DNA of 64,000 nt. Source: an uncultured Acidobacteriota bacterium (GTDB lineage Bacteria > Acidobacteriota > CAIWXX01). Below the pieces are notes generated by a model that did not search any database, was not told the origin of the DNA, and saw nothing but the letters and a program-made list of their open reading frames with translations. Of this stretch, positions 2,752 through 23,052 are shown in pieces; the stretch's first letter is position 1, and every line of letters begins with the position of its first letter. The stretch is taken from positions 1 through 64,000 of the forward strand of contig CAIWXX010000062.1 of assembly GCA_903916735.1 (NCBI GenBank), in the 5' to 3' direction. The position numbers and the translations under genes are program-made.

Positions 2752-2921
2752 TTGTCGTGACCTGCGACGAGCATTCCCTGGTACCTTACTGCGGTTGACA
2801 TTCCGTAAGGGCAAAAAGGGGGTCAGGGAAATGGCCGGTGTCTTCTTGTAATACAATGATTATGCCGGTTCATTTCCAGGCCCCGTAGTACGGCTATGGG
2901 GTCAGGTTTTACTATTGACAT

Positions 2922-3589: not shown

Positions 3590-3650
3590 TAATTCCGTGA
3601 AAAAGCCATGTTTTTCCTGTACAAAGCCTGCCGATAACGGAGGCCTCATC

Positions 3651-5903
3651 ATGGCCAAACATCCCGGCACGATGGCGCCGCGCACCGCGAGGCAATCTGC
3701 CTTTTTTCAGCGTCGCGCTGCTGTCTGCAGAGGCTTTTCTCTTCTCCCCCTCTTCATCATCATCGGGGCTTTCTGTATGCTTCCGGGATGCCGACATGAA
3801 AATCGAATCGTCACAATTGACCTGCTCCAGGAAACACCCGAGATCATCAGCCCTACTGTTTGCCTCAAGGCTCAGGACGAATCCACACGACAACTCATCT
3901 ACGAGGGGTTCAGAACAGGGCCTGACGGCCAGTTTGCGCTGCCGCTTTCCACAGGTTCTGCTCGATTCGGCTTCTATGCAATCAATCCCGTGGACTGTTT
4001 ATCACTGACCACACGTTCGGATACGGTCTGCGACGTCTGGATACGCATCAATGGACAGGGGATTGGCGGAGGAAGAGTGGAACTGACATCAACGACCTTG
4101 ACGCTGCCCATCGCTTCCGGCATCACGGTGGATGGGCTTAACCTCTGTACAATGAGGTTAACTCCAGAGGCACGAACATCTGCCACGAGCACCATCCTGG
4201 TCAGCTCCATCACCTTCGGCAAATTTGCTACACATGTAGTAAAATACGGCAGCCCGCCCAGGAGCACTCTGCGGATGAGTCCGCCATCTGAAGTCAGCTG
4301 GTGCATCAATTTCCGACGAGAAACACTCGAATTTTCCGGTATCCTGTCATCTCCGCAGCCATCCTCCTGCCATGTCGAAATTTTTATGGAAACCGATCGA
4401 CTCAGAAGAACGTCCATCTGGAATTCGACTTTTCATTTGAATGGCGATCGGACATTCAGCGGCGAAGTCAATTTGGCACCTTTCGGGGGTGCCCCCGCCC
4501 GGATCATCGCCCGGTTAACTAGCGACTCCGGCAACCCATCGCTTGTCTGGAACCGTTTTTGCCTCACCCAGCCCGGGCATAAAACCCCGCCGGCGGCTTC
4601 TACTATAGCTCGCCTGCCGGCGCGTCCCAACGTCATCTTCTTTCTGATCGACGCGCTCCGTCGCGATCACCTGTCGACTTATGGCTACAATCGGCCGACA
4701 TCGCCGACTCTCGATCGCCTGGCCGCCACCAGTGCCGTTGTCTTCGACAATGCATGGACACAATCGGCCTGGACCGGCCAATCGGTTGCATCCTTGTTTA
4801 CAGGTGAATATCCGTCGACCACCGGGATCAGGAATCACTCGGATTCTCTTTTCAGCGGCTTCACAACGATTGCGGAATTTCTGAAAGCTGCCGGTTACCG
4901 TACGATTGCATTTGTGGCAAACTTCGGCCTCGGCACAAAAACCGGCTACTCGGACGGGTTCGTTGAGTTCAATTTCCGGCAAGGGGAAAAAATTGCTCCG
5001 CTCGTCGATGAAGCCATCAGCAGGGTGCCGTCTTCCGGGCAACCATTCTTCATGTACATCCACGTCATGGATGTCCACTTTCCATATCGCAGCGCTCCTG
5101 CCCCATTCAACGCTCTTGTGCAGCGCAGTAAAAAGGTAACACTGACAGAAGAGGAAATCTCCATCAAGAAACTGAAGCAGGGCACACAAGAACCGACTGC
5201 AGCCAACATGGCATTCATCCAATCTCTCTACGATTCGGAAATCCTCTCGGTCGATTCTTCACTGGGCCGTTTATGCGATGCGCTGCGGAAACGAGGCCTC
5301 TATGACAACACGATGATCGTCATCCTGAACGACCACGGCGAGGAATTCAATGATCACGGCAGCTACTATCACGGCCATTCGCTGTACAACGAACTGACGC
5401 GAATGGTGCTCATCGTCAAGCCGCCTTTTCCAACGCAACATCATCGCGTCGCATCACCGGCTCAAACAATCGACCTCTACCCGACCGTCGCTGCATTTCT
5501 GGGCCAATCCCCCTCCGTGCCCGGAAATGACCTTGGGCCGCTCTTGCGAACCGGCGCTTCTGACAACAAAGAGAATGTGCCCATATACTGCGAGACGGAT
5601 CTCATCACCAGCTATCGATCAATCCTGGACGGCAATCACAAGCTGATCCTGCGGAATCGCCGTCGTGAAGGTCGTGCCGATACCTTTTCTCTCTTCGATG
5701 AAAGCCGTGATCCTTTGGAAATGAATGACTGCGCCTCTGCAATGCCGGTGACCGCGGCATATCTGGCTTCCCTCATTCGGAGGCATGAAGAGCAGTCAAT
5801 CAAGCGCCGTCACTTCTCGCAGGAGGAAATTCATCGGACCATCGATGAGGAAACCCAGCGCCAACTCGAAGCGCTCGGCTACGTTAATGCCGGCAAGGAA
5901 TAG
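3651..5903 (+). CDS. Sulfatase-fold lipoprotein with N-terminal beta-rich domain
   Basis: Predicted lipoprotein of 750 residues with a hydrophobic signal ending in the lipobox MLPGC. About 270 residues of beta-rich sequence follow, possibly a carbohydrate-binding sandwich, then a sulfatase/alkaline-phosphatase-superfamily domain from about residue 325 (NVIFFLIDALRRDHLSTYGY) to the end, with metal-site motif NDHGEEFNDHG. The sulfatase nucleophile motif C/S-x-P-x-R is replaced by T375-G-Q-S-V, so formylglycine cannot form; Thr is the nucleophile in LtaS-like and phosphotransferase branches. ATG 3651 is chosen because GGAGG precedes it by 7 nt; an upstream GTG at 3597 has none. It is convergent with a paralogue at 6162-8360. 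Phosphoester or phosphoglycan transfer in the envelope is more likely than sulfatase activity; the substrate is unknown. Confidence 0.8.
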   Translation: MAKHPGTMAPRTARQSAFFQRRAAVCRGFSLLPLFIIIGAFCMLPGCRHENRIVTIDLLQETPEIISPTVCLKAQDESTRQLIYEGFRTGPDGQFALPLSTGSARFGFYAINPVDCLSLTTRSDTVCDVWIRINGQGIGGGRVELTSTTLTLPIASGITVDGLNLCTMRLTPEARTSATSTILVSSITFGKFATHVVKYGSPPRSTLRMSPPSEVSWCINFRRETLEFSGILSSPQPSSCHVEIFMETDRLRRTSIWNSTFHLNGDRTFSGEVNLAPFGGAPARIIARLTSDSGNPSLVWNRFCLTQPGHKTPPAASTIARLPARPNVIFFLIDALRRDHLSTYGYNRPTSPTLDRLAATSAVVFDNAWTQSAWTGQSVASLFTGEYPSTTGIRNHSDSLFSGFTTIAEFLKAAGYRTIAFVANFGLGTKTGYSDGFVEFNFRQGEKIAPLVDEAISRVPSSGQPFFMYIHVMDVHFPYRSAPAPFNALVQRSKKVTLTEEEISIKKLKQGTQEPTAANMAFIQSLYDSEILSVDSSLGRLCDALRKRGLYDNTMIVILNDHGEEFNDHGSYYHGHSLYNELTRMVLIVKPPFPTQHHRVASPAQTIDLYPTVAAFLGQSPSVPGNDLGPLLRTGASDNKENVPIYCETDLITSYRSILDGNHKLILRNRRREGRADTFSLFDESRDPLEMNDCASAMPVTAAYLASLIRRHEEQSIKRRHFSQEEIHRTIDEETQRQLEALGYVNAGKE

Positions 5904-6161
5904 GCGCTGTTTTTAATCGAAGAAAACACCTGTCCCCTCAGAGATGCAAAACAGTAGGAAACATCCAAGACATCCCGCAAAGTGAAAGATCAAATGTGGA
6001 AACCTCAAGCAAATGCTGCTGAGTGTCATTTCGATTCTGATTTTATGAGTTGCCAGTATCGGTTGGTCATACTCCCAGCCGAGCACCTTCGTGGCTTTGA
6101 TATCAACTGGGCACCGTATTGGTGGAGATGATTTTCGCGAACAGGGGATCCCTCTGTCAGC

Positions 6162-8360
6162 TCACTCGATATACCCAAGCGCTCTCATGTTCTGTAAATC
6201 CTCTTTCGACAACCTGATAGTCGCTTCATCGGATGCAACCTTCTGGCGCATCTGACAGTCGCGCATCCATCGGTGTAATTCCTGACGGAAAAACGAGACA
6301 ATCATCGGGTGTTGCTCACTGAGATTGACCTTTTCGGCCGGATCTGAGTCAAGTGCGAAAAGCAGGTCACTCGGGGAAGGCGACTCATCTTGTGAAAACG
6401 TAATCAACTTCCACTGACCGTTGGTCGCGGAAAGGATTTTTCCTTTCAGTTCAGTTTCCGCAAAGACCGTGTCGATTGTGTAGGCACCCTGATGGAATAG
6501 TGACGCGAAACTGTGTCCTGGGAGATCGTCGGGGATAGGACGGCCCATTAACTCCAGAATTGTAGGCACAATATCGATCTGCTGGACCCTGGCCGTCACA
6601 ATTCCCGGCCTTCCCAATCCTTTCGGCGATTTGACGATGAGTGGGAGGTGCACGATCTCCTGATACAAAGTATGTCCATGCAGGAAACCGCCGTGATCGC
6701 GGAACTCCTCGCCGTGATCAGCTGTGAAAATGATCATCGTGTTGTCATAGATTCCCGCTTTCTTCAGTGAATCGATGAATTCGCTGAAACCAAAATCGGA
6801 ACGTCGAACCTCGGAATCGTAGAGTGACCGAAGGTATTCGACATCTCGAGATGCCAGCAATGCGGAGCGTTGTCTCAGATCACGGATGAATGAGACTGAA
6901 TGCTTGTCGGGAACCGACTCAAGCTCAGAGCCCACATGTGCGATAAGGTTATCAAAAGGCGGGATCGCATCATAGGGATAGTGTGGATCCATCGCGTGGA
7001 CGTATAGGAAAAATGGAGTTTTCTTGCGCGACAGATCGCCGATAACCGGCCTTAATAAGCGATTGACTTCCAGCGCGGTCGTTGTGCTCGGATAGGCATA
7101 ATATCCAGATTCAAACCCCTGAGCAAAACCCGTTTCACGGACGACCAACGGCTGAGTGGAGAAAAACACGCGTTGGAACCCCGACAATCGCTCAGCAAGC
7201 GTGACTATTTTCGAGTGTAGAATCCTGTTGCGTCGCGTGACCTGATGGATCATGGGATAGTAACCCGTCAGCAGGCTGGCGACCGAAGGTTTGGTCCAGG
7301 ATGTATGTCCCAGCGCATCTATGAAAACCTTGGATTCGGCTGCAAACTGCCGGAGGAACGGTGAGGTCTCACGATGATAGCCGTATGGTTGAAGGGCATC
7401 GGCGCGCAGAGCGTCCACAAGAAAAATGATGATGTTGAAAGGAGGCGTGGAGGGCATGGGGGTTTTAGTTGGCGGAGGGCCGTCGAGAACGAGCCGAGGG
7501 TTACCCCAGAAGATCCTCCCGTTTGGAACTCCCATGGATAGCCGCCCAAAGCCTCCACCGTCTATTCTCACATTGCACTCGACCAACCCTTTGCCTTGTC
7601 GATGAGTCGTGTAAATCAACTGCCTGCCGCCGCTCTCCGGCGTCCATGTCAATGAAGCATCGCATGGAGCTTCAAACCCCACGTCAAATCGGAGCCGGCA
7701 AGGCGCGCCCGGCAATTGGAGGTATACATTGATCTCCGGCATCGTAACTGATTGCCAGTAGCCGTCTATCTTGCGATTCTGAAAACTAAACACACCGGGG
7801 CCGCTGAGCAACCTCGGGCTCGTCATCGAGAATTCAATTTTCGAGAGCCGAAGACGAATGTTTTGTCTCTCCATCTTTCTTTTCAGATTGCTCAAACCAA
7901 TCGTCAATAAGTTCCGACCCTTTCGGAGCGAGGCTGGAGGGAGTGAGATCCGGCAAGAACCTCTTTGTGAGGCAAGCCAAATCCCGATGCATTGTCCGTT
8001 GATCATAATAGGCACATCGAGGTGGCCTGCGTCAGTCTCGCCCATCAGAACAACCCTTTCGTGTCTCCCAGTGAATTCGAAGAAGTTGAGGGTAAGGTCA
8101 CGTCGCGGCAAAAGCACAGAACTCATGCCGGCACGAGTCAGTTGAGCGCCATCTTTTCCGGCTGCTTGAGCAATGGCCGTCGCATCGATCAGCTCCGTCT
8201 CTTCTTCCCTTTCTGTGACCATCAGACTCGGGAGCAACCTCTGCGCATCATGATCGGTCCGCCTTCCTGATGAACAACCGACAGCCATGAAAATACTCAG
8301 CAGCGCTGCCAATGGCAAGAAGCGACCGAGGGCAGTTCCCGAAATGAACTTTAGGAACAT
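6162..8360 (-). CDS. Sulfatase-fold lipoprotein, paralogue of the 3651-5903 gene
   Basis: Predicted lipoprotein of 732 residues with lipobox MAVGC, an N-terminal beta-rich region and a C-terminal sulfatase-superfamily domain (FNIIIFLVDALRADALQPYGY, later FTADHGEEFRDHGGFLHGH). As in its convergent neighbour, the nucleophile motif reads T356-K-P-S-V in place of C-x-P-x-R. The ATG at 8360 is preferred: it opens directly into the signal peptide and has AGGAAAG upstream, while the longer frame to 8477 adds 39 non-signal residues. Both proteins end in a short helix with a conserved ALGY ending. The tail-to-tail duplication suggests an old gene duplication with inversion. An envelope phosphohydrolase or transferase role is likely but unproven. 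Confidence 0.8.
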   Translation of the reverse strand: MFLKFISGTALGRFLPLAALLSIFMAVGCSSGRRTDHDAQRLLPSLMVTEREEETELIDATAIAQAAGKDGAQLTRAGMSSVLLPRRDLTLNFFEFTGRHERVVLMGETDAGHLDVPIMINGQCIGIWLASQRGSCRISLPPASLRKGRNLLTIGLSNLKRKMERQNIRLRLSKIEFSMTSPRLLSGPGVFSFQNRKIDGYWQSVTMPEINVYLQLPGAPCRLRFDVGFEAPCDASLTWTPESGGRQLIYTTHRQGKGLVECNVRIDGGGFGRLSMGVPNGRIFWGNPRLVLDGPPPTKTPMPSTPPFNIIIFLVDALRADALQPYGYHRETSPFLRQFAAESKVFIDALGHTSWTKPSVASLLTGYYPMIHQVTRRNRILHSKIVTLAERLSGFQRVFFSTQPLVVRETGFAQGFESGYYAYPSTTTALEVNRLLRPVIGDLSRKKTPFFLYVHAMDPHYPYDAIPPFDNLIAHVGSELESVPDKHSVSFIRDLRQRSALLASRDVEYLRSLYDSEVRRSDFGFSEFIDSLKKAGIYDNTMIIFTADHGEEFRDHGGFLHGHTLYQEIVHLPLIVKSPKGLGRPGIVTARVQQIDIVPTILELMGRPIPDDLPGHSFASLFHQGAYTIDTVFAETELKGKILSATNGQWKLITFSQDESPSPSDLLFALDSDPAEKVNLSEQHPMIVSFFRQELHRWMRDCQMRQKVASDEATIRLSKEDLQNMRALGYIE

Positions 8361-8483
8361 GTCGCCCACTTTCCTGATCTTTCCTGCGCCTGTGCCTCGA
8401 AAAGAAACAGCCACTGACGACCGGACATTGTATATGTCCCTATCATTGATGCCCAAAGTATCACACTGATGTGTCATAGGGTC

Positions 8484-8539
8484 AAAAACCCTGCATGGTG
8501 GATTTCTCAGGTGAAATGGACGAAGTCGCGATGCAGGGT
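8484..8539 (-). terminator. Intrinsic terminator-like hairpin after the dnaG-rpoD-zinc-ribbon genes
   Basis: ACCCTGCAT (8488-8496) and ATGCAGGGT (8531-8539) are perfect 9-bp inverted arms. On the minus strand the distal arm is followed directly by TTTT (plus A-run 8484-8488). The internal sequence has a second small hairpin (ATTTC/GAAAT). The position, about 95 nt past the stop of the zinc-ribbon gene and just before the sulfatase-like gene, fits termination of the upstream operon, although the loop is longer than usual. Confidence 0.5.
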
Positions 8540-8633
8540 GTCTGTGAACCGAGTTCCGAACTTAGAAAGCCCGAAGTACAGGGTCGTCGGGCGAATCGAG
8601 CCGCTTAACCTCTTAGCCGGCTTCAATATCCTT

Positions 8634-9386
8634 TTAGTCGGGCTCGTTTGACTCAGGAGATTCATCAGATATGGATAGCGGAGGCGGGCCGTCATAATAG
8701 AGAATTCTGTAGCAGGAATCGCATGTGATCAGCTGATTGTTATTCCTGATATCGTTGTAAACCTGCGGTCGCAAGCGGACATGACATTCCATGCAGAATT
8801 CATCACGAGCTTCGGCCAACGCCCCGCCCCTTAGTGCACGAACGCGACTGTACGTATGTCGCACGGTTTCGGGGAGTATCGCTTCCACTTCGACGCGTTT
8901 GCTCTCAAAACCGGATCTCGCCACGCGTGTCTGCGCCAACTCCGATTCCAATGTGGCCTTTTCGGCGAGGAGCTTTGATTTCTCCGACTGGAACCAGCTT
9001 TCGATCTTCTTGATATGGGCGTTGTGCTCATCCACCTCGATCAGAAAGCCGATGATTCTCTCCTCGATCCCATCTACCTTCTTCTGGGCAGCGTCGATTT
9101 CCTTGAGGAGTGCGGCATACTCTTTGTTGGTTTTTACCGAGAGGAGCTGATCTTTGTAATGCGCGATTTTGCCGCGCATCAATTCAACTTCCGCCTCGGC
9201 TTCTTTTTTCGATTTCAGCAGTTCCGTGAGCTTCCCCTTTTCGAGCTCCATCTCCTTCTGGCGAGACGCAATCTCATCTTCCAGTGTCAGGATCCTGCGA
9301 GGAAGCTCTTCCTCTTTTCGGAGGCAATCATTAATGGAAAGATCGATCTGTTGCAGCTTGAGGATGGTGGCTAGGTCAAACTCCAT
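8634..9386 (-). CDS. Coiled-coil protein with C-terminal C4 zinc ribbon (COG1579-type)
   Basis: A 250-residue protein with a long antiparallel coiled coil (about residues 10-165, rich in Glu/Lys/Leu heptads), then a zinc ribbon with C198-x2-C201 and C222-x2-C225. This is the layout and length of the COG1579/CdsZ-like family, proposed to bind nucleic acid or act near the ribosome. It lies 63 nt downstream of rpoD in the same direction and precedes a terminator-like hairpin, so it is probably the last gene of the dnaG-rpoD unit. The tail after the ribbon is short and acidic. Confidence 0.85.
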   Translation of the reverse strand: MEFDLATILKLQQIDLSINDCLRKEEELPRRILTLEDEIASRQKEMELEKGKLTELLKSKKEAEAEVELMRGKIAHYKDQLLSVKTNKEYAALLKEIDAAQKKVDGIEERIIGFLIEVDEHNAHIKKIESWFQSEKSKLLAEKATLESELAQTRVARSGFESKRVEVEAILPETVRHTYSRVRALRGGALAEARDEFCMECHVRLRPQVYNDIRNNNQLITCDSCYRILYYDGPPPLSISDESPESNEPD

Positions 9387-9449
9387 TATCGCCGCTCCCG
9401 CGGCTGATTGATCATCACGATTCTCATACTTCCGTTCACCCGAACCCGC

Positions 9450-11123
9450 TTAGTATACTCTGGTGCTTTCCAAAAAGGAACGCAATTTCTTGGCTCGGGA
9501 TGGATGGCGAAGCTTCCTCAAGGCTTTGGCTTCAATCTGCCTGATGCGTTCGCGAGTCACCTGGAAGCTCTGCCCAACCTCTTCAAGAGTATGCTCGTTG
9601 CCCTCTTCCAGACCAAATCGCATCTTCAAAACCTTTTCTTCGCGTGGTGTGAGTGTCCGCAGAACATCATCAGTCTGTTCTTTCAGGTTGAGCCGGATGA
9701 CGGTATCGGCCGGCGACGGAATCTGAGAGTCCTCGATAAAATCGCCGAGGTGGGAATCTTCTTCTTCGCCGATGGGAGTTTCCAGAGAAATCGGTTCCTG
9801 AGCGATCTTGAGAATCCGGCGCACCTTGAACACCGGGATCTCCATTTTCTCAGCAATTTCTTCGCAGGTCGGCTCGCGGCCCAGTTCCTGAACCAGGCTC
9901 CGCGATGTGCGAATCAGCTTATTAATAGTTTCAATCATGTGCACAGGAATTCGGATCGTGCGAGCCTGGTCGGCAATAGCGCGCGTGATGGCTTGCCGTA
10001 TCCACCAGGTGGCATACGTCGAGAATTTGTATCCGCGGCGGTATTCAAATTTGTCGACGGCTTTCATGAGACCAATATTGCCCTCCTGGATGAGATCCAG
10101 GAACTGAAGCCCGCGGTTGGTATATTTTTTTGCGATGGACACAACGAGACGCAGGTTAGCTTCCACGAGCTGCTGTTTGTATTTCTCCGTGTCCTCTTTG
10201 CCCCGCTGAATCGTTGCGAGCGATCTCTTGAGCTGATCAGGGTTCGTCTGAATTTTCTGAGCCAGCTCTGAGATCCGTCCTTCAACCTCCGCTGCCTTTT
10301 CCTTTAAGGTCTTGCGGTCTGCAGGTCGTCGGCTACGGTTATGCTGCTCAATGAAACGCTGCCGTTCGTGAGCGAGCTTGTCGAACATCTCCTGCTGCCC
10401 CTTCAGGTGATTGATGAAAGAGACGATATGCAGATCAGAGAAATCGATCCTCTGAACGATCCAGGATATTTTGATCCGAAGCTGGGCTATATTCCATGCC
10501 AGTTTCCGTCGGTTTCGATCAGATTGGCTCTTTTGAATCTTCGTCACCACCTGCTCGACATCTCGCAAGCGCCCTCGAATTCGAGTCGCCACCCGCGTCA
10601 TCTCGGCGCAGCGTTCTGCGATTTTTTCGTCTCCGATTTCATCGTCATTCAGATTGAGAATATCCTTGACCAGCTCAGGGCGTTCCTTCAGGCGGTCGAT
10701 AATTGCCAACAGATAATTGATGATAATGGAGCTGCGCGACAGCGCCTTGAGAACGCAATTTTCAGAGCGTTCGATCTTCTGTGCGATTTCGACTTCGCCG
10801 TCTCTCGTCAATAGCGGCACAGTTCCCATCTCGCGAAGGTACATCCGCACCGGGTCGTTGGTCTTCTCGACAGTCGGCGCCAGAGGATCGGGTTCCGGCT
10901 CCTCTTCAAACTTCTGGCTCTTCTCGGCGATCTTCGCCTTCTCGGCCGAATCCACGAGCTCGATTCCAGCCGAATCGAAGAGGCCGAAGATGCTGTCATA
11001 TTCGTCGGCACTCGCGACCTCAGGCGGCAGAAGATCATTGACTTCCTCGTAGAGCAGGTAGCCCTTCTCCTTGCCGATGTTGATCAGGTTTCTGACTTCT
11101 TCCAATTTGTCATCGATAGACAA
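9450..11123 (-). CDS. rpoD: RNA polymerase primary sigma factor RpoD
   Basis: Housekeeping sigma-70 factor (557 residues) directing RNA polymerase to -10/-35 promoters. It shows region 1.1 at the N-terminus, region 1.2 ([20 protein letters not shown]), a non-conserved insert rich in charged helices, the diagnostic region 2 ([20 protein letters not shown], then [20 protein letters not shown]), region 3, and region 4.2 with the HTH ending [20 protein letters not shown]. Its length is typical of non-enterobacterial RpoD. It sits 26 nt after dnaG, the order of the classic macromolecular synthesis operon (here without rpsU), and ahead of the zinc-ribbon gene. Confidence 0.97.
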
Positions 11124-11149: not shown

Positions 11150-12922
11150 TCAATTATCGACCTCGTACAGTCTCCGGGCTGATTCCTGTTTGCGCCGGAG
11201 AGCCTCGTCGAGAAGTTCCGGGTCGGCGGCTGCATGTTCGATCTCATTCTGCATCTGCATCATGTCGCCGGCATCATTGCGCAGCGCCTGCAGGCAGCTT
11301 GTGATCTCCCTGCTGTCCGGCCACCCGGCTTCTTCGGCTTCCATGAGCACGCCGGAAAGTCCGGCTGCTTCTTCTTCGTCGAGTATCTGGAAAACCCGCT
11401 TCTGATCGTAGTTTTCACCGCGTGTGGCCAATACGGCAAGCTTCTTGAAAAGTGGTTGACAAACCAACCCTTTGAGTGAAGCCAATTCAGCGGCAACCTC
11501 ACTACACTGACGGGCATTCGCGACACTATACAGCAACAGCCGCTTCTCAGCGTGTCCCGGAGCGCGCCGAAAAGCAGAGGCCGGCGCAACATAGGATGAA
11601 ACAGCTGCAATCTGCGGATCGGGAAGACGAGCCAATTCAGCGCGAAGCTGATCGATCCCGATGCGGAATCGAGCCGAAGCTTCGCGGAGAGCCAGGTCCT
11701 GTCGAACCGCATTGCTCATGTGACGGATAAGCCGGAGATACTCGGTGACATCAGCCACCCGGCCGTCGGTTGCATGATCTGTGTATGAGAGGAACAGTGT
11801 GTCCAACGCGAAGATCTCACCGGCGGGCGCATTCGCCAGCAACTCTTCATAGGCTTTCAATCCTTCCTTCAGAATGAAGTCATCGGGATCGAAACCCGTC
11901 GGGAGCGCCAGCACGCGAACGCCGGCATCTTCTTCAAAGAAGATTTCGAGCGATCGAATGATCGCAGCACGGCCAGCCGGGTCCGGGTCGAAGTTGAGAA
12001 CCCCGCGTGCTCCATGCCGGTTGAGAATCTTCACTTGAGGTCGCGTCAGACTGGTACCCAGGCAGGCGACGCACGTTCTGATGCCTTCCTGGAAAAGGAC
12101 GAGGAAATCCATGTAGCCTTCAACGATGACGGCTTCAGCAGCCTTGCGCACGTGTTCCCGTGTCAAGTTCAGCCCGTAGAGTTCCCGCCCTTTCGTGTAA
12201 ATGGCTGTTTCAGGCGAATTGACGAACTTGGGGACGCCGGCGGACGCATCGACCTTCAGGAGAGTCCGCCCGCCGAAAGCGATGACGTCGCCGTTCTCGG
12301 AAAAAATAGGAAACATCATGCGATCACGAAAGCGGTCGTAGTAGCCGGCACTGCTCTGCTTTTCAACAATCAGCCCTGCCTTAGCGATGTGTTCCGGCTC
12401 AAGGCCCTGCCGACGGAGATGGTTAAAAAGGCGATCCCACTGTGGGGGCGCGAAACCCAATTGCAATGCAGACACAGACTCCGATTTCACACCGCGCTTT
12501 TTCAAAAATTCCCGCGCCATCCACCCATCCGGCGATTGAAGAGCTTTTTGAAAAAAACCGAGTGCCGCCTGGTTGATGTCAATCAAACGCTTTCGCTCGC
12601 TTTGAGCGATCCCATCGCCGCGAGATGGCGACAACTGAATGTGATATCGCTCGGCCAGATTTCGAAGTGCTTCCGGGAAAGTACATCGTTCCATCTCCAT
12701 CACGAGGCGAAAAACATCCCCCCCTCGATGACATCCAAAGCAATGATACAATTTCTTGGCTCTATCGACGGTGAAAGATGGCGTTTTTTCGGCGTGAAAA
12801 GGACAGAGACCGATATGTTTTCCAGCTCTTTGTTTGAGTGGCGTATAGGCGGAAGCAATCTCGACAATGTCAGCTGCTTCGTATACCTTATCGCGGTCGT
12901 TGGTAAATCCTTGATTTTTCAA
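11150..12922 (-). CDS. dnaG: DNA primase DnaG
   Basis: Synthesises RNA primers for replication. The 590 residues contain the N-terminal CHC2 zinc domain (C40, H43, C61, C64), a Toprim core (VIVEGYMDFLVLFQEGI and FDPDPAGRAA) and a diverged C-terminal helicase-interaction region. The frame opens with TTG at 12922 (LKNQGF), with an AGGAGG about 14 nt upstream, which is slightly far, so the exact start is open by a few codons. It is first in the dnaG-rpoD-zinc-ribbon unit and has a good promoter about 75 nt upstream. Confidence 0.96.
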   Translation of the reverse strand: MKNQGFTNDRDKVYEAADIVEIASAYTPLKQRAGKHIGLCPFHAEKTPSFTVDRAKKLYHCFGCHRGGDVFRLVMEMERCTFPEALRNLAERYHIQLSPSRGDGIAQSERKRLIDINQAALGFFQKALQSPDGWMAREFLKKRGVKSESVSALQLGFAPPQWDRLFNHLRRQGLEPEHIAKAGLIVEKQSSAGYYDRFRDRMMFPIFSENGDVIAFGGRTLLKVDASAGVPKFVNSPETAIYTKGRELYGLNLTREHVRKAAEAVIVEGYMDFLVLFQEGIRTCVACLGTSLTRPQVKILNRHGARGVLNFDPDPAGRAAIIRSLEIFFEEDAGVRVLALPTGFDPDDFILKEGLKAYEELLANAPAGEIFALDTLFLSYTDHATDGRVADVTEYLRLIRHMSNAVRQDLALREASARFRIGIDQLRAELARLPDPQIAAVSSYVAPASAFRRAPGHAEKRLLLYSVANARQCSEVAAELASLKGLVCQPLFKKLAVLATRGENYDQKRVFQILDEEEAAGLSGVLMEAEEAGWPDSREITSCLQALRNDAGDMMQMQNEIEHAAADPELLDEALRRKQESARRLYEVDN

Positions 12923-13279
12923 ATCTTAGACCTGAACCTCCTCCCTACAGAGTATACACCGCCCAACATCGCCTATGGGACGACGCACAACCTTTCATCC
13001 TAACAGGGAAAGGCTCCACTTTTCAAGGGGATGAATGACGGAAAAATGAGATTTTTCAATTTTTACAAAATATGGAGTGATATTTGCCATACGAAACACC
13101 CAAAGAAGCCGCGATAAACTAGGAAAAGTAAACCAAGAAAGTAGCCAAGCCGATTTCATTCGCTTGGAACGACCGAGAGGAGTTTGAGAGATGTCAATCT
13201 CGCACTCGCTCCTTCTCTGCGATCAACCCCTTTCCTCTCCGCTTACGCTCTGTGCGATGTCGAGGCCGGGACATCGGCT
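12923..13279. other. Intergenic region upstream of dnaG
   Basis: A 357-bp gap between the start of dnaG and the stop of the next minus-strand gene. It holds the dnaG promoter (12997-13026), an AT-rich stretch at 13030-13085 and a weak CCAAGC/GCTTGG hairpin around 13157-13179. I see no gene or structured RNA. Confidence 0.5.
12997..13026 (-). promoter_or_regulatory. Sigma-70 promoter for dnaG-rpoD
   Basis: On the minus strand TTGAAA (plus 13021-13026) and TAGGAT (plus 12997-13002) are separated by 18 nt, close to consensus. The expected start site near 12990 gives a leader of about 70 nt before the dnaG start codon. Confidence 0.55.
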
Positions 13280-16200
13280 TCAGGATTTTGCTTCTCGGGC
13301 CTTTTCGAAGATCTCTCCTATCCACTTGGCGAATCTGGATTCGAGATGATCCAGGAACATGGTCGGCACAGTGGTCACCGGCACTGGAAATTTGTCAATA
13401 GCCAATGCCTGCCGTTTGAGCGGGAAGTGGCCGATATCCCAAATAGCGTCTGATTCGTGGCTATCGATCACGATGCCACGATACAGAGGCGCGACGCGCT
13501 GAATTTCTTCCATGACATCGCCGGGATGGTTGTACTTCATCTTGAAACGATACCCCATCCTGGCTGCAATTTGAGTCATCACTTGCCACGTTTCGAGGCC
13601 AAGGAGAGGCGGGATCGCCTGCTTCAGCCTCTGGATACGACGCTCGGAATTCGTGAATGTTCCGCTTGTTTCAGCGGTGCTGCTTAATGGAAGCACGACG
13701 TTGGCAAGTTTGGCTGTTTCAGTGAAGAACTGATCGGCAACAACAAGGAAATCAGCTGCTGCCAGCCCGTTCTTGATTTCATCAGGAACACCCGGATCGC
13801 CGAAAGGATCTTCGCCGATCAAGACGGCCACTTTGATCTTCCGATCACGGAGCAGCGCGGCCATGTCGACAGCATCGGCATCAAGGTCACGCAAGGCAAC
13901 ACACCATTCCTTTTCGAGATTTTCAACCACAGCATCATCATGAATAGACTGATATCCGGGGTACCAGGCAGGGTTTGCGCCCATATCAAGCAGCCCCTGC
14001 ATATTGGATTTTTCGTGGAGAGCCAGTGTCGCACAGCCGAGAAGGTCGGCAGCCAGTGAGAAGAGCCGACTATCTTGTGGGGTTCTCTGCCCGCGATAAT
14101 CCTTGTTGAAGATAAGCACCTTGACGATGCTCTTGGCCAGGATCCGTGCGGCCTCAGAGATGAGTGCTGTATTGACGCCGGTGATTTCGCGAAGGCGATC
14201 GGGCGTCAGACCGTCAATCGTTTTCCGCAACTCGGCATCTCCAACATCGCTCGCTGGAACCGCTTCCTTGAGGATGCCTAAGACGACAAACGGCTCGGTG
14301 CCGGGCTGACACTTAAGGAAAACTTCGGCCAATCGCGAAACCTGATTTTCCTCCGGATGGATGTAAATCAGCTTGCCGCCATTTCGAAGTGATCGTTTGC
14401 AGAGCAGATCGGCGACGAAGTGTTCTTCGTCGAGGCGAGAGTTGACAAGCAGGATCGTCTGAGCATCCGCGACGTCCCGGTAGGTTGCGGTCGAAACCAC
14501 ATCGGGACAGTTGAATTCCGAGTTAACGACATGTGCAAGTGACGTGACGTTGTGAGTTTTGAAGGCGATTCGCGCGAATTTCTGCGCGAGATAAATTTCT
14601 TCATTGGTCAGGCGAGGTGAAACGAAAACGGCCATCTCCTTGCCCGAATAGCGTCGCGCCAGCTCTTTCAAACGCATGGCTGTATAGTCGATGGCACTCT
14701 CAAGGGTTGCATCCTGCAAGACCCGTCCAGCGCGTATCTTCGCCCGCTGCAGGCGTTCGAGTGAATGGATATGATCAAATCCGAAGCGGCCTTTCTTGCA
14801 GTGCAGACCTGACGTAATAGAACCGTTTTCACTACGAGCGACCTTGACGACGGTGTCCCCCGATGTTTCGTATTCGATACGGCAGCCGACACCACAGTAC
14901 GAACAAACGGAAGAAACAGGCGTTGTCTTCCACGGGCCGGGCTTGGCGAGGGGGATTTTTTGCGAGATGGCACCGGTCGGGCATGTGCCGACGCAGAGCC
15001 CACATGTCACACAGCCGGTATCGAGCAGAGATCCGCCGAGTTCCGGTTTCACAACTGTGTTGAAGCCGCGCTGGAGGAAACCGTACGCAGCCACGCCGAC
15101 GACTTCGGAGCACATCCTGACACAACGACCGCAGAGGATGCACTTATTCTGATCCAACTCGATCAAAGGGTGGGATGCATCCACTGCATGTTGTTTGGCT
15201 TCGCCGAGGAACTGGCTGATGTCGATGCCATATTCTGTCGCATACTGACGAAGATCGCAGTCGAAGAGAGCGATGCAGCCGCACTCGATGCACCTGTGCG
15301 TTTCTAGAAGAAGATCCTCCGCTGTGTACCCTTGCTCGACTTCCACAAACCCCCTGATACGATCTTCGACGGGAAGGACGGGCATGGATCTCCGACCACT
15401 TTTCTCCTGGCTTCTCAAATCCGCGACTGTGACCTTGGCGAAGGTATCCTTCCGGCTGAAAAATTCCTTCGGTTCGGGCATTGCTTTTCCGCCCATGAGA
15501 TACTGATCAATGGCATGGGCCGCTTTCCGGCCGGCAGCAATGGCTTCGATGGCGGTCGCGGCGCCTGTGACGACATCGCCGCCTGAGAAAACGCCTTCCA
15601 CGCTCGTTTCGCCGGTTCCCTCGGCGGTCTGAATCGTCTGCCAGCGAGTGAGGTTCAGCACTTCGCCAAGTGGCAGGAAGTTCGGGATGTGGCCATCCAG
15701 CAGTTCTGGAACTCGAGTGCTCTGCCCGATTGCTGAAAGGATGTAATCGCAATCCATGACGAACTCGGAACCGCGAACCGGCTTGGGACTGCGCCGGCCG
15801 CTGGCGTCAGGTTCTCCCAGCTCCATGCGAAGACACTCGAGCCCGGAGACACGACCATTCGAAGTGATGACACGAACCGGAGCGACGAGGAAATCCATGT
15901 TGACGCCTTCCTGTTCAGCGTCATGGATCTCCACTTCATTGGCCGGCATTTCTTTCCGTGTTCTCCGGTAGACGATGCGGACGTCTTTGACGCCCAGGCG
16001 GAGCGCCGTTCGAGCGCAATCAATCGCCGTATTGCCACCGCCCACAACCAGCACTCGGCCATGGATCTCGATCTTTTTTCGAAGGCCGAAATTTTTGAGA
16101 AAATCGATGCCCGACAGCACCCCTTGCGACTCCTCGCCTTTGACACGCATTTGCGAGCTGCTCCAGGCACCCATCCCCATGAAGATGGCACCGAACCCCT

Positions 16201-17038
16201 GTTCCTTGAGGCTCGTGACGGTGAAATCTCGACCCAGCACGGTGTTTGTTTTGAGCCTGACGCCGAGGCTCAGGATCTGGTTGATCTCGATGTCGAGCAC
16301 ATCTTTGGGCAGGCGATACTCAGGGATGCCGTAACGCAGCATCCCACCGGCTTCCGGCAGCGCTTCATACATCTGAACATCATAGCCCTTGAGGGCCAGG
16401 TAATAGCTGCAGGAGAGGCCCGCAGGTCCAGCCCCGACAATGGCAACCTTTTTGCCGTTGGGTGCCTTCACCTCAGGACGCCATGCATCGCCGCTTCCCA
16501 TATCGAGGTCGGTGATGTATCTCTTGATGTAATCGATGCCGACGGCTTCATCCAGGAGATTGCGCCGGCAACCCTTCACTTCGCAGGGGCGCGTGCAGAC
16601 TCTACCGCAAACCGACGGAAGCGGATTCTTGTCCTTGATGAGTCTGACGGCATCGCGATATTTTCCGAGGGCCGCCAACGCGATATAGCCCTGGATATCG
16701 ATGCCGGCGGGGCATGACAGCTGGCACGGGCCGATGCAATCGGCGTAGTGATTCGAGAGAAGCAGCTCGAGCGCCGCTTTTCTCGATTTTCTAACATCAG
16801 GGCTATCGGTTTCGACCACCATTCCGTTCGCAACTTTGGTGGAACAGGCGGGAATCAGCGTCCGAGCGCCTTTCACCTTGACGACACAGAGGAAGCATGA
16901 GGCAAAGGGTTCGAGCTGATCGTCGTGGCAAAGGGTCGGTATGTTGGTGATGCCATTCTCGCGGGCAACCTGCAGAATCGTCCGGTTGCCGTCGGCAATG
17001 ATTCGCTTTCCGTTTATTTCAAGTTTGACTAGGGCCAT
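13280..17038 (-). CDS. Ferredoxin / GltD-type flavoprotein / molybdopterin-oxidoreductase-like fusion (SfrAB/NuoG-like)
   Basis: A 1,252-residue cytoplasmic electron-transfer protein. In order: NuoG-type [2Fe-2S] domain (C37, C48, C51, C65); His-Cys cluster region around C101-C109; GltD/NfnB-like flavoprotein with two dinucleotide motifs (GAGPAG at 202, GGGNTA at 333); cysteines around 583-594; two [4Fe-4S] motifs (C633/636/639/643 and C676/679/682/686); and a molybdopterin-oxidoreductase-type domain with its own cluster (C712, C715, C719, C747). At the position of the formate dehydrogenase Cys/Sec Mo ligand the sequence is A-H-V-V838-N-S, so formate oxidation is unlikely. It resembles a single-chain version of Geobacter-type SfrB plus SfrA. 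With NuoE/NuoF homologues immediately upstream it probably links NAD(H), NADP(H) and ferredoxin pools. GGAG stands 6 nt before ATG. Confidence 0.85.
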   Translation of the reverse strand: MALVKLEINGKRIIADGNRTILQVARENGITNIPTLCHDDQLEPFASCFLCVVKVKGARTLIPACSTKVANGMVVETDSPDVRKSRKAALELLLSNHYADCIGPCQLSCPAGIDIQGYIALAALGKYRDAVRLIKDKNPLPSVCGRVCTRPCEVKGCRRNLLDEAVGIDYIKRYITDLDMGSGDAWRPEVKAPNGKKVAIVGAGPAGLSCSYYLALKGYDVQMYEALPEAGGMLRYGIPEYRLPKDVLDIEINQILSLGVRLKTNTVLGRDFTVTSLKEQGFGAIFMGMGAWSSSQMRVKGEESQGVLSGIDFLKNFGLRKKIEIHGRVLVVGGGNTAIDCARTALRLGVKDVRIVYRRTRKEMPANEVEIHDAEQEGVNMDFLVAPVRVITSNGRVSGLECLRMELGEPDASGRRSPKPVRGSEFVMDCDYILSAIGQSTRVPELLDGHIPNFLPLGEVLNLTRWQTIQTAEGTGETSVEGVFSGGDVVTGAATAIEAIAAGRKAAHAIDQYLMGGKAMPEPKEFFSRKDTFAKVTVADLRSQEKSGRRSMPVLPVEDRIRGFVEVEQGYTAEDLLLETHRCIECGCIALFDCDLRQYATEYGIDISQFLGEAKQHAVDASHPLIELDQNKCILCGRCVRMCSEVVGVAAYGFLQRGFNTVVKPELGGSLLDTGCVTCGLCVGTCPTGAISQKIPLAKPGPWKTTPVSSVCSYCGVGCRIEYETSGDTVVKVARSENGSITSGLHCKKGRFGFDHIHSLERLQRAKIRAGRVLQDATLESAIDYTAMRLKELARRYSGKEMAVFVSPRLTNEEIYLAQKFARIAFKTHNVTSLAHVVNSEFNCPDVVSTATYRDVADAQTILLVNSRLDEEHFVADLLCKRSLRNGGKLIYIHPEENQVSRLAEVFLKCQPGTEPFVVLGILKEAVPASDVGDAELRKTIDGLTPDRLREITGVNTALISEAARILAKSIVKVLIFNKDYRGQRTPQDSRLFSLAADLLGCATLALHEKSNMQGLLDMGANPAWYPGYQSIHDDAVVENLEKEWCVALRDLDADAVDMAALLRDRKIKVAVLIGEDPFGDPGVPDEIKNGLAAADFLVVADQFFTETAKLANVVLPLSSTAETSGTFTNSERRIQRLKQAIPPLLGLETWQVMTQIAARMGYRFKMKYNHPGDVMEEIQRVAPLYRGIVIDSHESDAIWDIGHFPLKRQALAIDKFPVPVTTVPTMFLDHLESRFAKWIGEIFEKAREAKS

Positions 17039-17073
17039 GTATTACTCCATCGATCATCGTGTCGCTTCCAACG

Positions 17074-19328: not shown

Positions 19329-21074
19329 TTAATCGTGTGGAGTGTTTAACATTTGATTGACGAGCGTGATCATTTGATCGATGTCTCCGAATCCGCCAAG
19401 AGCGTGCCCGGTGCATCCGTGGCGGCAGCAGAATTCCAGATAACCGCCGCCTTTCAGATTGAGTGATGCCATTGTGGCGCCGCAGAGCTTGCATGGGATG
19501 TTCAACATCAGGCTTTGATCGCATGTTGGACATCGGAATTCGGCGGTCGCTCCCTCGGGGACGTCGAGATCGGTTTGGATTGCGTAGTCACCAAAAATAG
19601 CGCTCAGGAAGATCTCACCATCCTGGTTCGTGTCTTTGACATACGCATCGAGATGCACCCTGCGGCCTTCCGTCAAAACATCGTTGCAGTTAGGGCAGGT
19701 CACATCCATCACCAGCATTTCGTTGCTCATGTTTGCCTTTTCTCCTTTGCGCGCCGGGATGCGGCTTTCTTCCACCTTCTCCACTCGTGACACCTCCGGC
19801 TCCCGGGTGGTGGGACCGGCGGCGAGCTTCTGCAGCCTGATAAAAACACAGTCGTTTATGGATGCGGCGCCTCCGAGAATATCCCCTGTGAGGGTGACGC
19901 AATCAGGGGCGCCACAGGCAGCGCAATCCTTATGAGGAAGACCGGCAAGAAGCCTGGTCTTCTCCTGCTTGAGCTTGATAGCCTGAGTCAAATCCTTGGC
20001 CGGCGGTTTGATGCTTCGGGCCTTGATCGCTTCCTCGATATCGAAAAAATGCTCTCGAAACAGCGAGCGAACTTTTTCCTCTTTGATCGCGTTTTGCAAC
20101 CCGATGTGGCCGGCGATTTCATGGATCGTCCGCTTAGCCGCATAGCGCCCTTCGATTAAGAGCGGCCCACTGACACAACCGTCCGGGCAGATATAGGCTT
20201 CGATGAAATCGACATTTTGGAATTTGCCGGCTTCAATTCGATCGAAAACGTACGTGATTTCCTGGACACCGCTGAGAGCCAGGGTATTGGTGTTGCGCAT
20301 CATGGCAATCTCGCCGCCGGCCGCAGCCCATTCCAGGCCTTTCGGGCTGAAGCCAGTTCCCATGCTTTTGGGGCTGTCCGCTTTGATCGCCTTTAAAAGA
20401 GGTCCATAGAGCTCGGCGATTGAAAAGGCTCCATCGAGGTAGGACTCATCGAGGCCGACCGGGCAGATGATCGACTGCATGATTGCTGAGCATGGGGTTG
20501 TATAGAAGACGCCGATATCGGATGGAGCGATGTGACGTTCAGTCGCCAGCTTGCGCCGCACATATTTGGCCGTCAGTTCCCGAGGAACTTCGAAGGGCAC
20601 GAGGTGAGGTAGGAGATCGGGATATCGGATCTGGATGAGACGCAGAATGGCAGGGCATGTGATCGATATTTTCGGCCAGGGTCCCTTGCACTCGGAAAGG
20701 TATGTGTCAATGGCCCTGCCAACCATCTCGCACATCCATGACATATCAAAGAAAGCATCAAATCCAACGTGCGTGAGAGCCGAGACGATTTCTTGAGGCT
20801 GAACATCACTTCCGAACTGCGCAAACAATGTTGTCGAAGGGACAGCCACGGTGTATTTAAACTTCTTGAGGTCTGACGGCGATGATGTGCGGGCGCTGAC
20901 AGCGTCATAGGGACAGATGCGGATGCATTCACCACAGTCGATACAGAGTTCGGTTTTAACCACCACCCTGCCCTCTTTGATTCGAATGGCCCGTGTCGGG
21001 CAGGCCTTGCAGCAGGCAACGCAAGCAACGCACTTTTCCAGATCGAAAATAACGGAATGGATGAGTTCAGTCAT
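19329..21074 (-). CDS. HydS-like [FeFe]-hydrogenase homologue with C-terminal Fe-S and zinc-rich modules
   Basis: A 581-residue protein: two ferredoxin clusters (C15/C18/C21/C25 and C44/C47/C50/C54), then a hydrogenase large-subunit-like core keeping the four H-cluster cysteines (C140 in ITCP, C195 in TPC, C296 and C300 in CPDGC). The proton-relay Cys of TSCCP is replaced by Thr139, and the Lys of the second motif is missing, as in sensory (group C/D) rather than catalytic enzymes. A C-x2-C-x4-C-x16-C Fe-S motif follows (384-409). After a linker come four further cysteine groups (residues 449-581). Its start overlaps the HATPase stop by 4 bp. A redox- or H2-sensing role coupled to the kinase-like neighbour is inferred. 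Confidence 0.8.
   Translation of the reverse strand: MTELIHSVIFDLEKCVACVACCKACPTRAIRIKEGRVVVKTELCIDCGECIRICPYDAVSARTSSPSDLKKFKYTVAVPSTTLFAQFGSDVQPQEIVSALTHVGFDAFFDMSWMCEMVGRAIDTYLSECKGPWPKISITCPAILRLIQIRYPDLLPHLVPFEVPRELTAKYVRRKLATERHIAPSDIGVFYTTPCSAIMQSIICPVGLDESYLDGAFSIAELYGPLLKAIKADSPKSMGTGFSPKGLEWAAAGGEIAMMRNTNTLALSGVQEITYVFDRIEAGKFQNVDFIEAYICPDGCVSGPLLIEGRYAAKRTIHEIAGHIGLQNAIKEEKVRSLFREHFFDIEEAIKARSIKPPAKDLTQAIKLKQEKTRLLAGLPHKDCAACGAPDCVTLTGDILGGAASINDCVFIRLQKLAAGPTTREPEVSRVEKVEESRIPARKGEKANMSNEMLVMDVTCPNCNDVLTEGRRVHLDAYVKDTNQDGEIFLSAIFGDYAIQTDLDVPEGATAEFRCPTCDQSLMLNIPCKLCGATMASLNLKGGGYLEFCCRHGCTGHALGGFGDIDQMITLVNQMLNTPHD
19741..19748 (-). promoter_or_regulatory. Internal ribosome-binding site in the HydS-like gene
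   Basis: Within the coding frame the minus strand reads AAAGGAGA, then 10 nt, then ATG at 19730 (codon 449, MSNEMLVMDV). This could give independent translation of the C-terminal 133-residue zinc-rich module in the same frame, so the gene may yield both a long and a short product, or this may be the junction of a recent gene fusion. Confidence 0.45.
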
Positions 21075-21710: not shown

Positions 21711-22151
21711 TCATTTCGAACCTGGAAGTTCCATTGTCTCTTTCCGGGATTCCTCTGCGACTTTATCTCGCTCGTGATATCCGCCTTTGAGCCCCTTGCC
21801 ATAGAGAAGCCCACAGGCTTCAAACATGGTGTACGGAGTTGACAGGACGGGGATTTGTTTCGCCTGAAGGATATCCAGGACTTGCTGCACGGGCTTTTTG
21901 TTGAGGACGAAAAGAATCGCCGTCAATTCCGCTACATCTGCCGTGTGGATGGATTGCACCCCCGTCAAACCAGTGATCAACATGGCGCGCGGCTTACAGA
22001 AGGCCAGAACATCGCTCATCATATCGGCGGCGAAGCATTCGGTGATGTCCGAGTCCAGGCGGTTGGAACCGCAGATGACGTCGCAATTGAGCAGTGCACG
22101 CACCTCATCGAGTTTCATGCCGGCGCTCTTCGCCAATGGGGCGATGTCCAT
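21711..22151 (-). CDS. DRTGG-like regulatory domain protein
   Basis: About 146 residues, with no catalytic motif recognised. The fold pattern (LNCDVICGSNRLDSDITECFAADMMSD, then LITGLTGVQSIHTADVAELT and a final PVLSTPYTMFEACGLLY helix) matches DRTGG-type domains accompanying HydS/HATPase genes. The ATG at 22151 is preferred: it follows the upstream DRTGG stop by 7 nt, whereas the longer frame overlaps that gene. The last residues (about 120-146) are charged and likely disordered. It probably acts as a partner or sensor in the cluster. Confidence 0.65.
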   Translation of the reverse strand: MDIAPLAKSAGMKLDEVRALLNCDVICGSNRLDSDITECFAADMMSDVLAFCKPRAMLITGLTGVQSIHTADVAELTAILFVLNKKPVQQVLDILQAKQIPVLSTPYTMFEACGLLYGKGLKGGYHERDKVAEESRKETMELPGSK

Positions 22152-22158
22152 CGACAGC

Positions 22159-22494
22159 CTAGCGAATCCCTGCCTCGTATAGCATGCTGGCAATCTGCCA
22201 ATTGTTCAGGTCGGTCGAAAAAACCGAGATCCCCGCCTTTTCAGCCAGAGCCACCATGTCATCCGAAGGCTTACGACCGCGTGTGATCACGATACCTGAT
22301 ACATCTACCAGGTTGGCCGCGGCGATGACGTTATTATGCACCTGAACGGTGATGAGAATATTGCCCGCCTTTGCATTGGCGATCACGTCGCTCACCATGT
22401 CCGAGATGTAAACCCCTGTGACACTCTTGTCGAAAACCTTGGTCAAGCCTTTCAGCTCAAGCTTCTCGGCGACCTCCCTTATGGTCATCTTCAC
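22159..22494 (-). CDS. DRTGG domain protein
   Basis: A 111-residue protein formed almost entirely of a DRTGG-like domain (TGVYISDMVSDVIANAKAGN, VHNNVIAAANLVDVSGIVIT, then SVFSTDLNNWQIASMLYEAG). This domain is a small ligand- or protein-binding module, also seen in PTA and CBS-associated proteins. The same strand and tight spacing to the second DRTGG gene indicate one transcript. Pairs of DRTGG proteins with HydS and HATPase are a recurrent arrangement in anaerobes; their exact function is not established. Confidence 0.75.
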   Translation of the reverse strand: MKMTIREVAEKLELKGLTKVFDKSVTGVYISDMVSDVIANAKAGNILITVQVHNNVIAAANLVDVSGIVITRGRKPSDDMVALAEKAGISVFSTDLNNWQIASMLYEAGIR

Positions 22495-22527: not shown

Positions 22528-23052
22528 CTACTCCATTGCCGTCAGGCCAAGGTCGACCATGATCTGCCCATAGGAGAATTCTTTGTATAGGTTGAAATAG
22601 TCCGGAAGGATAAGGATCTTTTTCTCCCGGTCCTGCAAGCGCTCATTATAGTATCGATTGAGAAACCTCAACTTGTCGATGCTGATGTTGGGCCTGGAAC
22701 CATCCGAGGCTTCGTAGGTGATCGCCACATAGACTGAGATTCGATTCTCCTGCGCGAGATCACCGATCTGAAACACCTGGCTGTTCTTGGGGCAATTCCC
22801 GTAATAAATCAGCCCCAACAAGTCAGCAAAGGACATTAATTCGCCGGTCGTTTTGTCCCGGATGTCAAACCGAATGGATTGAGCGATAGCGGAAGAAGAC
22901 CAGATCTTGCTGCCTTCCCGGTACTCCTCCACAGGCGGCGTCGGATCGCCCGAAAAATAGGATCGTTTCGCCTGACTGTAAACTTCATGTTCAACAACGA
23001 TGTACCCCGGTTGAACATTCGCCATCTCGTACCGATGCGTTCCCGCTACCAT
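22528..23052 (-). CDS. Uncharacterised protein at head of the HydS cluster
   Basis: A 174-residue protein that I cannot assign. It has no signal peptide, membrane segment or cysteine motif, and appears as mixed alpha/beta soluble sequence with conserved-looking GLIYYGNCPKNSQVFQIGDL and a helical C-terminus. The start at 23052 is supported by AGGAG 8 nt upstream. It ends 33 nt before the first DRTGG gene on the same strand, so it is probably the first gene of the hydrogenase-sensor-like transcript. Confidence 0.65.
   Translation of the reverse strand: MVAGTHRYEMANVQPGYIVVEHEVYSQAKRSYFSGDPTPPVEEYREGSKIWSSSAIAQSIRFDIRDKTTGELMSFADLLGLIYYGNCPKNSQVFQIGDLAQENRISVYVAITYEASDGSRPNISIDKLRFLNRYYNERLQDREKKILILPDYFNLYKEFSYGQIMVDLGLTAME

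Follow-up and report, generated by a model that had tools for sequence, protein, structure and literature searches.

Gene Order and Domain Architecture

The window analysed here is a stretch of 64,000 nucleotides from an uncultured Acidobacteriota bacterium (contig CAIWXX010000062.1), the minus strand of which carries an open reading frame (ORF) of 1,252 codons at 13280–17038 (start ATG at 17038, open throughout) beside genes for a NuoF-like and a NuoE-like protein. The three genes very probably encode an electron-bifurcating, ferredoxin-linked NADH/NADPH transhydrogenase of the StnABC type (also named Nfn-ABC or Nfn-Bfu), the reaction being assigned by homology, and their products are referred to as StnC, StnB (NuoF-like) and StnA (NuoE-like). 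An earlier sequence-only reading had placed a chain of 1,252 residues here, directly after NuoE/NuoF-like subunits, and both statements are confirmed: the genes form a tight operon on one strand, with 35 bp between the StnC and StnB genes and an overlap of 4 bp between those of StnB and StnA. The StnA-StnB-StnC order was recovered in 68 of the best-scoring 80 related loci, a subset of all; among the remaining 12, StnC starts less than 2 kb from the sequence start in 10, and no neighbour was found in two (L097, L104).

Pfam searches placed in StnC the domains Fer2_4 at residues 3–79, which corresponds to the NuoG-type ferredoxin proposed earlier, Fer4_20 at 103–180, Pyr_redox_2 at 196–503 and Fer4_Nqo3 at 624–691, together with Molybdop_Fe4S4 at 708–759 and Molybdopterin (best stretch 1054–1146) in the C-terminal part. 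NuoG-like and hydrogenase sequences align to StnC in two stretches, one ending at about residue 102 and the other starting at about 584–593, which argues that the GltD module sits within the NuoG-like chain, so that the His-Cys3 motif of the latter is divided, with His97/Cys101 before the module and Cys588/Cys594 after it. What had been described as a single-chain fusion of SfrB-like and SfrA-like proteins is indeed one chain with GltD and NuoG/formate-dehydrogenase-like parts, which appear not to be joined end to end, the GltD part probably being inserted inside the motif. The same kind of cysteine motifs was described for StnC by Kremp et al., who cite the idea of a GltD protein integrated into a NuoG-like protein (PMC7483475), and a NuoG/formate-dehydrogenase-like chain with such a predicted insertion is the StnC architecture of Sporomusa StnABC.

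Closest Solved Relatives and Conserved Cofactor Ligands

The best solved relatives of StnC by sequence are 9bov_A (859 bits), 8oh5_C (781 bits) and 9n5u_A (669 bits), and the next match scores about 315 bits. The matches to 9bov_A and 8oh5_C span nearly the whole chain and score over twice as high as the next kinds; 9bov is Nfn-ABC of Caldicellulosiruptor saccharolyticus by the title of its structure entry, 8oh5_C is StnC of Sporomusa ovata and 9n5u is NfnABC of Thermococcus sibiricus. The NuoF-like partner is also closest to these enzymes, with 840, 823 and 802 bits for 9bov_B, 8oh5_B and 9n5u_B versus 740 and 713 bits for HydB-type chains. Foldseek with a predicted model of StnC residues 1–1200 gave Nfn-ABC/StnABC enzymes in the top four places with 9bov best; this model (mean predicted local distance difference test score 80) counts as support only, since its predicted template modelling score is 0.52 and its iron-sulfur regions are of low confidence. 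The known enzyme with the same subunit set and domain order is StnABC/Nfn-ABC/Nfn-Bfu (PMC7483475, PMC10482914, PMC9304861) and not SfrAB of Geobacter, with which the chain had first been compared. The novelty that the earlier reading implied is likewise not sustained, as the characterisation of StnABC dates from 2020 and its structure from 2023.

StnABC of Sporomusa ovata (8oh5/8oh9; PMC7483475, PMC10482914) shares with the present set the three subunits, the StnC domain order, the Lys and Arg at K170/R239, the numbers of cluster ligand sets and a NuoEF-like, here predicted bifurcating, pair in which the N-terminal Cys/Gly pattern and the C-terminal ferredoxin domain recur. The S. ovata complex has been produced in Escherichia coli (PMC10482914) and contains about 42 Fe. 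It differs in a StnC of 1,172 amino acids versus 1,252 and in C114 versus Ile here; moreover, the formate-dehydrogenase-like domain is closer to formate dehydrogenase (FDH) in sequence here, and sensor-like genes stand upstream in the present branch. Nfn-ABC of Caldicellulosiruptor saccharolyticus, which ranks first by sequence for both StnC and StnB and by fold for StnC, has a StnC of 1,178 amino acids. NfnABC/Nfn-Bfu of Thermococcus sibiricus is of the same three-subunit Nfn-Bfu type, and the oxidation of NADPH coupled to NAD+ and ferredoxin is reported for it (PMC9304861); unlike the present chain, its chain has 963 amino acids, a shorter C-terminal domain and missing cysteines for one cluster. 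Canonical NfnAB has a similar GltD-like module for NADPH and flavin adenine dinucleotide (FAD) and the same overall reaction, but consists of two subunits without NuoEF, bifurcates at its FAD and carries Glu in place of Lys (as read in the genome's own NfnB and own GltD487), whereas Lys172 and NuoE/NuoF-like neighbours, not Glu and NfnA, were found at the present locus.

Residues were compared across 85 aligned StnC rows, which are related and not independent and include L008 together with L036 (same contig) as well as short rows. The residues K170, R239 and C114 (8oh5_C numbering) align with K172, R242 and I115 here, and K172 and R242 are present in all 85 rows. The NADP motif (G333, G335, A338) and R358/R359 also occur in 85/85, so that the flavoprotein domain does not lack NADPH-binding residues, a lack which the sequence-only reading had named as one of two findings that would refute it. 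The FAD and NADP glycines are conserved, except for G207, replaced by Ser in 6/85; C105 is Ala in two rows, and the Molybdop_Fe4S4 cysteines 712, 715, 719 and 747 are retained in 76 or 77. StnC carries ligand sets for six [4Fe-4S] clusters and one [2Fe-2S] cluster, as grouped by their motifs. That K172 and R242 are invariant, as are most cluster ligands, fits the published StnABC mechanism.

All of the bifurcation-specific ligands of the B2 [2Fe-2S] cluster are present in StnB (C430, T468, H517, C523, C528), with a spacing that matches the published set, given by Schut et al. for the NiFe enzyme as C438, C476 (Thr in about two thirds), H525, C531 and C536 (PMC9304861). The StnA and StnB alignments, filtered by score and length, contained 69 and 71 rows, respectively; four B2 residues occur in 70 of the StnB rows (one gap), and position 468 is Thr in 58, Cys in 10, Ser in one, Val in one and a gap in one. 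The B1 ligands (C447, C450, C453, C493) and eight C-terminal cysteines for two [4Fe-4S] clusters are present as well, and the N-terminal domain (B5 [2Fe-2S] region) exhibits three cysteines and Gly16, the same pattern as in Sporomusa StnB, for which Kremp et al. describe Cys loss (PMC7483475). Five NuoF-type paralogues of the genome were compared with StnB: neither the full B2 set nor the ferredoxin cysteines occur in the three of non-bifurcating type (complex I, NAD-hydrogenase, NAD-formate-dehydrogenase); the C160 paralogue, with Ser replacing the Thr, keeps four of the five B2 residues and all eight ferredoxin cysteines; and the C70 NuoF::GltD chain (trimmed to 640 amino acids for this purpose) has the five B2 residues and an incomplete ferredoxin set.

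In the mechanism proposed from these homologues, NADPH would pass a hydride to the FAD of StnC, located in its GltD module, single electrons would then run via the StnC [4Fe-4S] clusters and the N-terminal [2Fe-2S] cluster to the flavin mononucleotide (FMN) of StnB, and the StnAB core would divide them at FMN between NAD+ and ferredoxin; physiologically, the enzyme may often run in reverse, from NADH and reduced ferredoxin to NADPH. Kumar et al. place bifurcation at the FMN in StnAB and regard the FAD of StnC as the site where NADPH enters without bifurcation (PMC10482914), and Schut et al. class the enzyme as Nfn-Bfu and report that the Thermococcus enzyme couples NADPH-dependent ferredoxin reduction (PMC9304861). 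By extension, the reaction, its direction, the assembly of the complex and a non-bifurcating StnC FAD are expected here also. One complex with separate NADH (NuoF/FMN) and NADPH (GltD/FAD) sites, suited to ferredoxin-linked transhydrogenation, had been predicted already and stands in outline by homology, with bifurcation assigned to the NuoEF-like pair and not to the StnC FAD.

Table 1. Features of the locus, with positions in the window; fractions of 85 refer to the aligned StnC rows.
Feature	Position	Strand	Basis
StnC homologue (Nfn-Bfu BfuA), 1,252 aa	13280..17038	minus	9bov_A 859, 8oh5_C 781, 9n5u_A 669 bits; Foldseek top four Nfn-ABC/StnABC
[2Fe-2S] NuoG-type ferredoxin domain, StnC N-terminus, aa 3-79	16802..17032	minus	Pfam Fer2_4; C37, C48, C51, C65 in 85/85
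Predicted inserted GltD module (FAD, NADPH, clusters beside FAD), about aa 103-587	15278..16732	minus	Pfam Fer4_20, Pyr_redox_2; K172/R242 85/85; two-stretch NuoG/hydrogenase matches
NuoG-type 4Fe-4S dicluster domain, aa 624-691	14966..15169	minus	Pfam Fer4_Nqo3; each of eight Cys in 84 or 85 of 85
Formate-dehydrogenase-like domain, aa 708-1192, predicted inactive	13463..14917	minus	FDH alignments; catalytic column Val; C-terminal pterin domain missing
StnB homologue, NuoF-like (FMN/NADH, C-terminal ferredoxin domain), 588 aa	17074..18840	minus	9bov_B 840, 8oh5_B 823, 9n5u_B 802 bits; B2 ligands
StnA homologue, NuoE-like [2Fe-2S], 159 aa	18837..19316	minus	Pfam 2Fe-2S_thioredx; best solved relative NfnC 9n5u_C, HydC 8a6t_C second
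FeFe-hydrogenase-like iron-sulfur protein, 581 aa, putatively sensor-like	19329..21074	minus	Fe_hyd_lg_C 77.6 bits; altered H-cluster motifs; upstream match in 5/5 nearest relatives
HATPase (anti-sigma/kinase type), 151 aa	21071..21526	minus	Pfam HATPase_c_2; upstream in 4/5 nearest relatives
Two overlapping DRTGG-domain genes	21711..22494	minus	Pfam DRTGG; first of pair upstream in 4/5 nearest relatives

Alternative Readings and the Formate-Dehydrogenase-Like Domain

Several observations speak against the StnABC assignment. The NuoE-like partner is closest to NfnC of 9n5u (177 bits) and then to HydC 8a6t_C (160 bits), ahead of 9bov_C (155 bits) and 8oh5_A (151 bits); since HydC outranks 9bov_C and Sporomusa StnA, this subunit does not discriminate. 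StnC reaches no NCBIfam cut-off among the best 25 of 66 models. Position 115, Ile here, is Val in 62, Ile in 15, Ala in six and Cys in two of the 85 rows; Kumar et al. record that Cys114, near cluster C7, is not strictly conserved, with Val or Ile in two homologues (PMC10482914), and this residue is thus not defining for membership. A Lys at the K170-equivalent position is also found in two further paralogues of GltD type from this genome, whereas Glu stands there in the genome's NfnB and in another NfnB-type protein; in these sequences, Lys distinguishes StnC from NfnB yet is not unique to Stn, which weakens K172 as a specific marker. The genome also holds a canonical NfnA-NfnB pair (L124, G000:C55:102000-107500, 841-3206), and according to Kremp et al. 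Stn and Nfn hardly ever occur together in acetogens, Clostridium magnum and C. carboxidivorans being among the exceptions (PMC7483475). Finally, the C-terminal 556 amino acids of StnC score 204 bits against the best FDH and 121 bits against known StnC.

SfrAB consists of two separate subunits, and to our knowledge NuoEF partners have not been described for it. That the locus encodes a fused, non-bifurcating NADPH oxidoreductase akin to Geobacter SfrAB, next to which NuoEF simply happen to be encoded, is highly improbable. The GltD part of StnC resembles SfrB and the NuoG/FDH-like part SfrA of Geobacter sulfurreducens, Kremp et al. giving, for the StnC of their study, identities of 39.9% for the N-terminal part with SfrB and 27.8% for the C-terminal part with SfrA (PMC7483475); but StnC is a single chain with NuoE/F neighbours, this adjacency is conserved in the same 68 of 80 loci, StnB has the full bifurcation ligand set, and the whole-chain relatives are Stn/Nfn-ABC, in a comparison which took SfrAB by description and not by its sequence. 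As the closest relative, SfrAB was rejected on these whole-chain and partner matches, which favour StnABC. A complex of the Stn type without tight coupling, acting as a simple NADPH:NAD+ or NADPH:ferredoxin oxidoreductase, is very unlikely: it would agree with Ile at the position of Cys114, whose change to Ala in Sporomusa StnC halved activity (Kumar et al., PMC10482914), and with some uncoupled side activity of Stn in published work, but all examined cluster ligands and the StnB B2 ligands are retained, and Cys at this position is absent from most homologues too.

The higher FDH score of the C-terminal part, and a homologue with an intact FDH domain (L074), could also point to an NADP- and NAD-linked formate dehydrogenase with an active Mo or W site in the C-domain, a reading that is extremely improbable. 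The catalytic column contains Cys or selenocysteine in 11/11 aligned FDHs but Val in the present StnC (P0001), and neither residue occurs in any of the 15 other StnC rows of the FDH alignment; the Molydop_binding (C-terminal pterin) domain was not found in StnC by Pfam search; and in a tree built from 47 C-domains, P0001 groups with its relatives L030–L034 (100/100) apart from the FDH clade (100/98; it includes the Stn row L074), with a weak placement among the Stn rows (48/65). On these three lines of evidence, the formate-dehydrogenase-like domain looks inactive, and an active one was rejected because the catalytic Cys or selenocysteine and Molydop_binding are absent. A recent swap-in of a genuine FDH C-domain, suggested by the same score, was rejected since the group of P0001 and L030–L034 is separate from the supported FDH clade. 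In Sporomusa, deletion of the FDH-like domain of StnC gave no functional complex (Kumar et al., PMC10482914).

The homologue L074:2564-6631 (Clostridiales bacterium AS09scLD_400, JAAYHT010000049.1) encodes a StnC of 1,356 amino acids that adjoins StnA and StnB, with a catalytic Cys, full Molybdopterin and Molydop_binding domains and a C-domain inside the FDH clade, and it is the only one of the 85 StnC rows with an intact FDH catalytic motif. No second StnC with intact FDH was found in 148 genomes of its class, L074 being the only one among the loci fetched and the next best, L135, lacking the FDH site. L074 may be a formate dehydrogenase linked to NADP, NAD and ferredoxin, on a contig of a metagenome-assembled genome that is possibly chimeric.

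Genome Context, Relatives and Upstream Genes

The genome search gave no match to PntB, four to POR gamma and one to CdhC/AcsB, a gene content in line with an anaerobe making NADPH from NADH and ferredoxin. Other combinations of NuoF and GltD co-exist in the same genome. At L121 (G000:C160:14000-24500, 788-10093), NuoE, NuoF, a NuoG-like chain of 1,150 amino acids with an NfnA-like C-terminal part (DHODB_Fe-S_bind 1085-1122), a GltD with the NfnB-type Glu at the Lys172-equivalent position and an FeFe-hydrogenase-like protein follow in a row, a set which looks like a hybrid complex of BfuABC and NfnAB with two putative bifurcation sites. NuoG-like and NfnA-like matches on the same strand, at most 1.5 kb apart, were observed in 24 other genomes of 297 searched in the phylum; in five such loci fetched, NuoE, NuoG, NfnA and NfnB matches were found in 5/5 and NuoF in 4/5. 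Such a hybrid was not met in the sections of Schut et al. consulted or in the titles and abstract openings of ten among 25 papers from one literature search, and may nonetheless be reported. At L120 (G000:C70:20000-37500, 11534-17067), a small putative NuoE-like frame, a NuoF::GltD fusion (1,094-amino-acid frame) and an FeFe hydrogenase (655-amino-acid frame; Fe_hyd_lg_C, Fe_hyd_SSU) represent a third way of joining NuoF and GltD in one genome. The C160 hybrid cluster, the most unusual side finding, and the intact-FDH StnC of L074 are both more unusual than stnABC itself.

Near full-length StnC (model position 4 or less to at least 1034) was detected in 23/297 sampled genomes of Acidobacteriota and is thus not rare there; full-length StnC was not found in G001, the sole same-family genome of a 40-genome sample. 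In L164 and L176 (G323:C48, G443:C12), StnC matches lie in frames of about 1,700 amino acids or more, with some 460–500 extra residues ahead of the GltD motif, and these are perhaps StnB-StnC fusions or merely long open frames. A literature search for StnABC in Acidobacteri* found no paper. Holophaga foetida is an acidobacterium. Stn clusters were listed by Kremp et al. in Firmicutes, Proteobacteria, Synergistetes and Euryarchaeota, plus Holophaga foetida (PMC7483475), and Schut et al. added Bacteroidetes (PMC9304861), so that the present find is an extension within a group already covered.

Upstream of the operon and in the same direction, the FeFe-hydrogenase-like gene lies 12 bp beyond the NuoE-like gene, the HATPase gene overlaps it by 4 bp and the DRTGG genes follow 184 bp further; a 174-amino-acid ORF at 22528-23052 (minus) had no match in the Pfam search. 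The FeFe-hydrogenase-like protein scores 77.6 bits for Fe_hyd_lg_C versus 307.6 bits for the catalytic-type HydA of the genome, in comparison with which its MPC motif has Thr for Met and is without Lys, and the GGGQ stretch is absent. The nearest relatives among the best 80 loci (64–72% identity) are labelled Acidobacteria, Terriglobia and Eisenbacteria. An upstream FeFe-hydrogenase-like match occurs in 5/5 of the nearest relatives (partial in L034), and HATPase and DRTGG matches occur in 4/5; the other 75 loci show one weak upstream FeFe-hydrogenase-like match and one locus with HATPase and DRTGG matches, although those with short upstream sequence could hide more. The StnC tree comprised 81 rows, leaving out L008 and the short L091, L097 and L108, with Sporomusa StnC not included. 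New here is only this Acidobacteriota/Eisenbacteria branch (P0001, L030–L034) with its upstream sensor-like module, the enzyme kind being already known. It is a tentative and rather doubtful suggestion that the branch forms a distinct Stn subtype whose transhydrogenase is produced alongside a sensor module of its own (FeFe-hydrogenase-like protein, HATPase, DRTGG) and regulated by it. In the sources consulted, Stn has so far been characterised in Sporomusa, Caldicellulosiruptor and Thermococcus, and it is now placed in an Acidobacteriota anaerobe, where the sensor module, if it acts as suggested, would couple NADPH supply to the sensed redox state or hydrogen.

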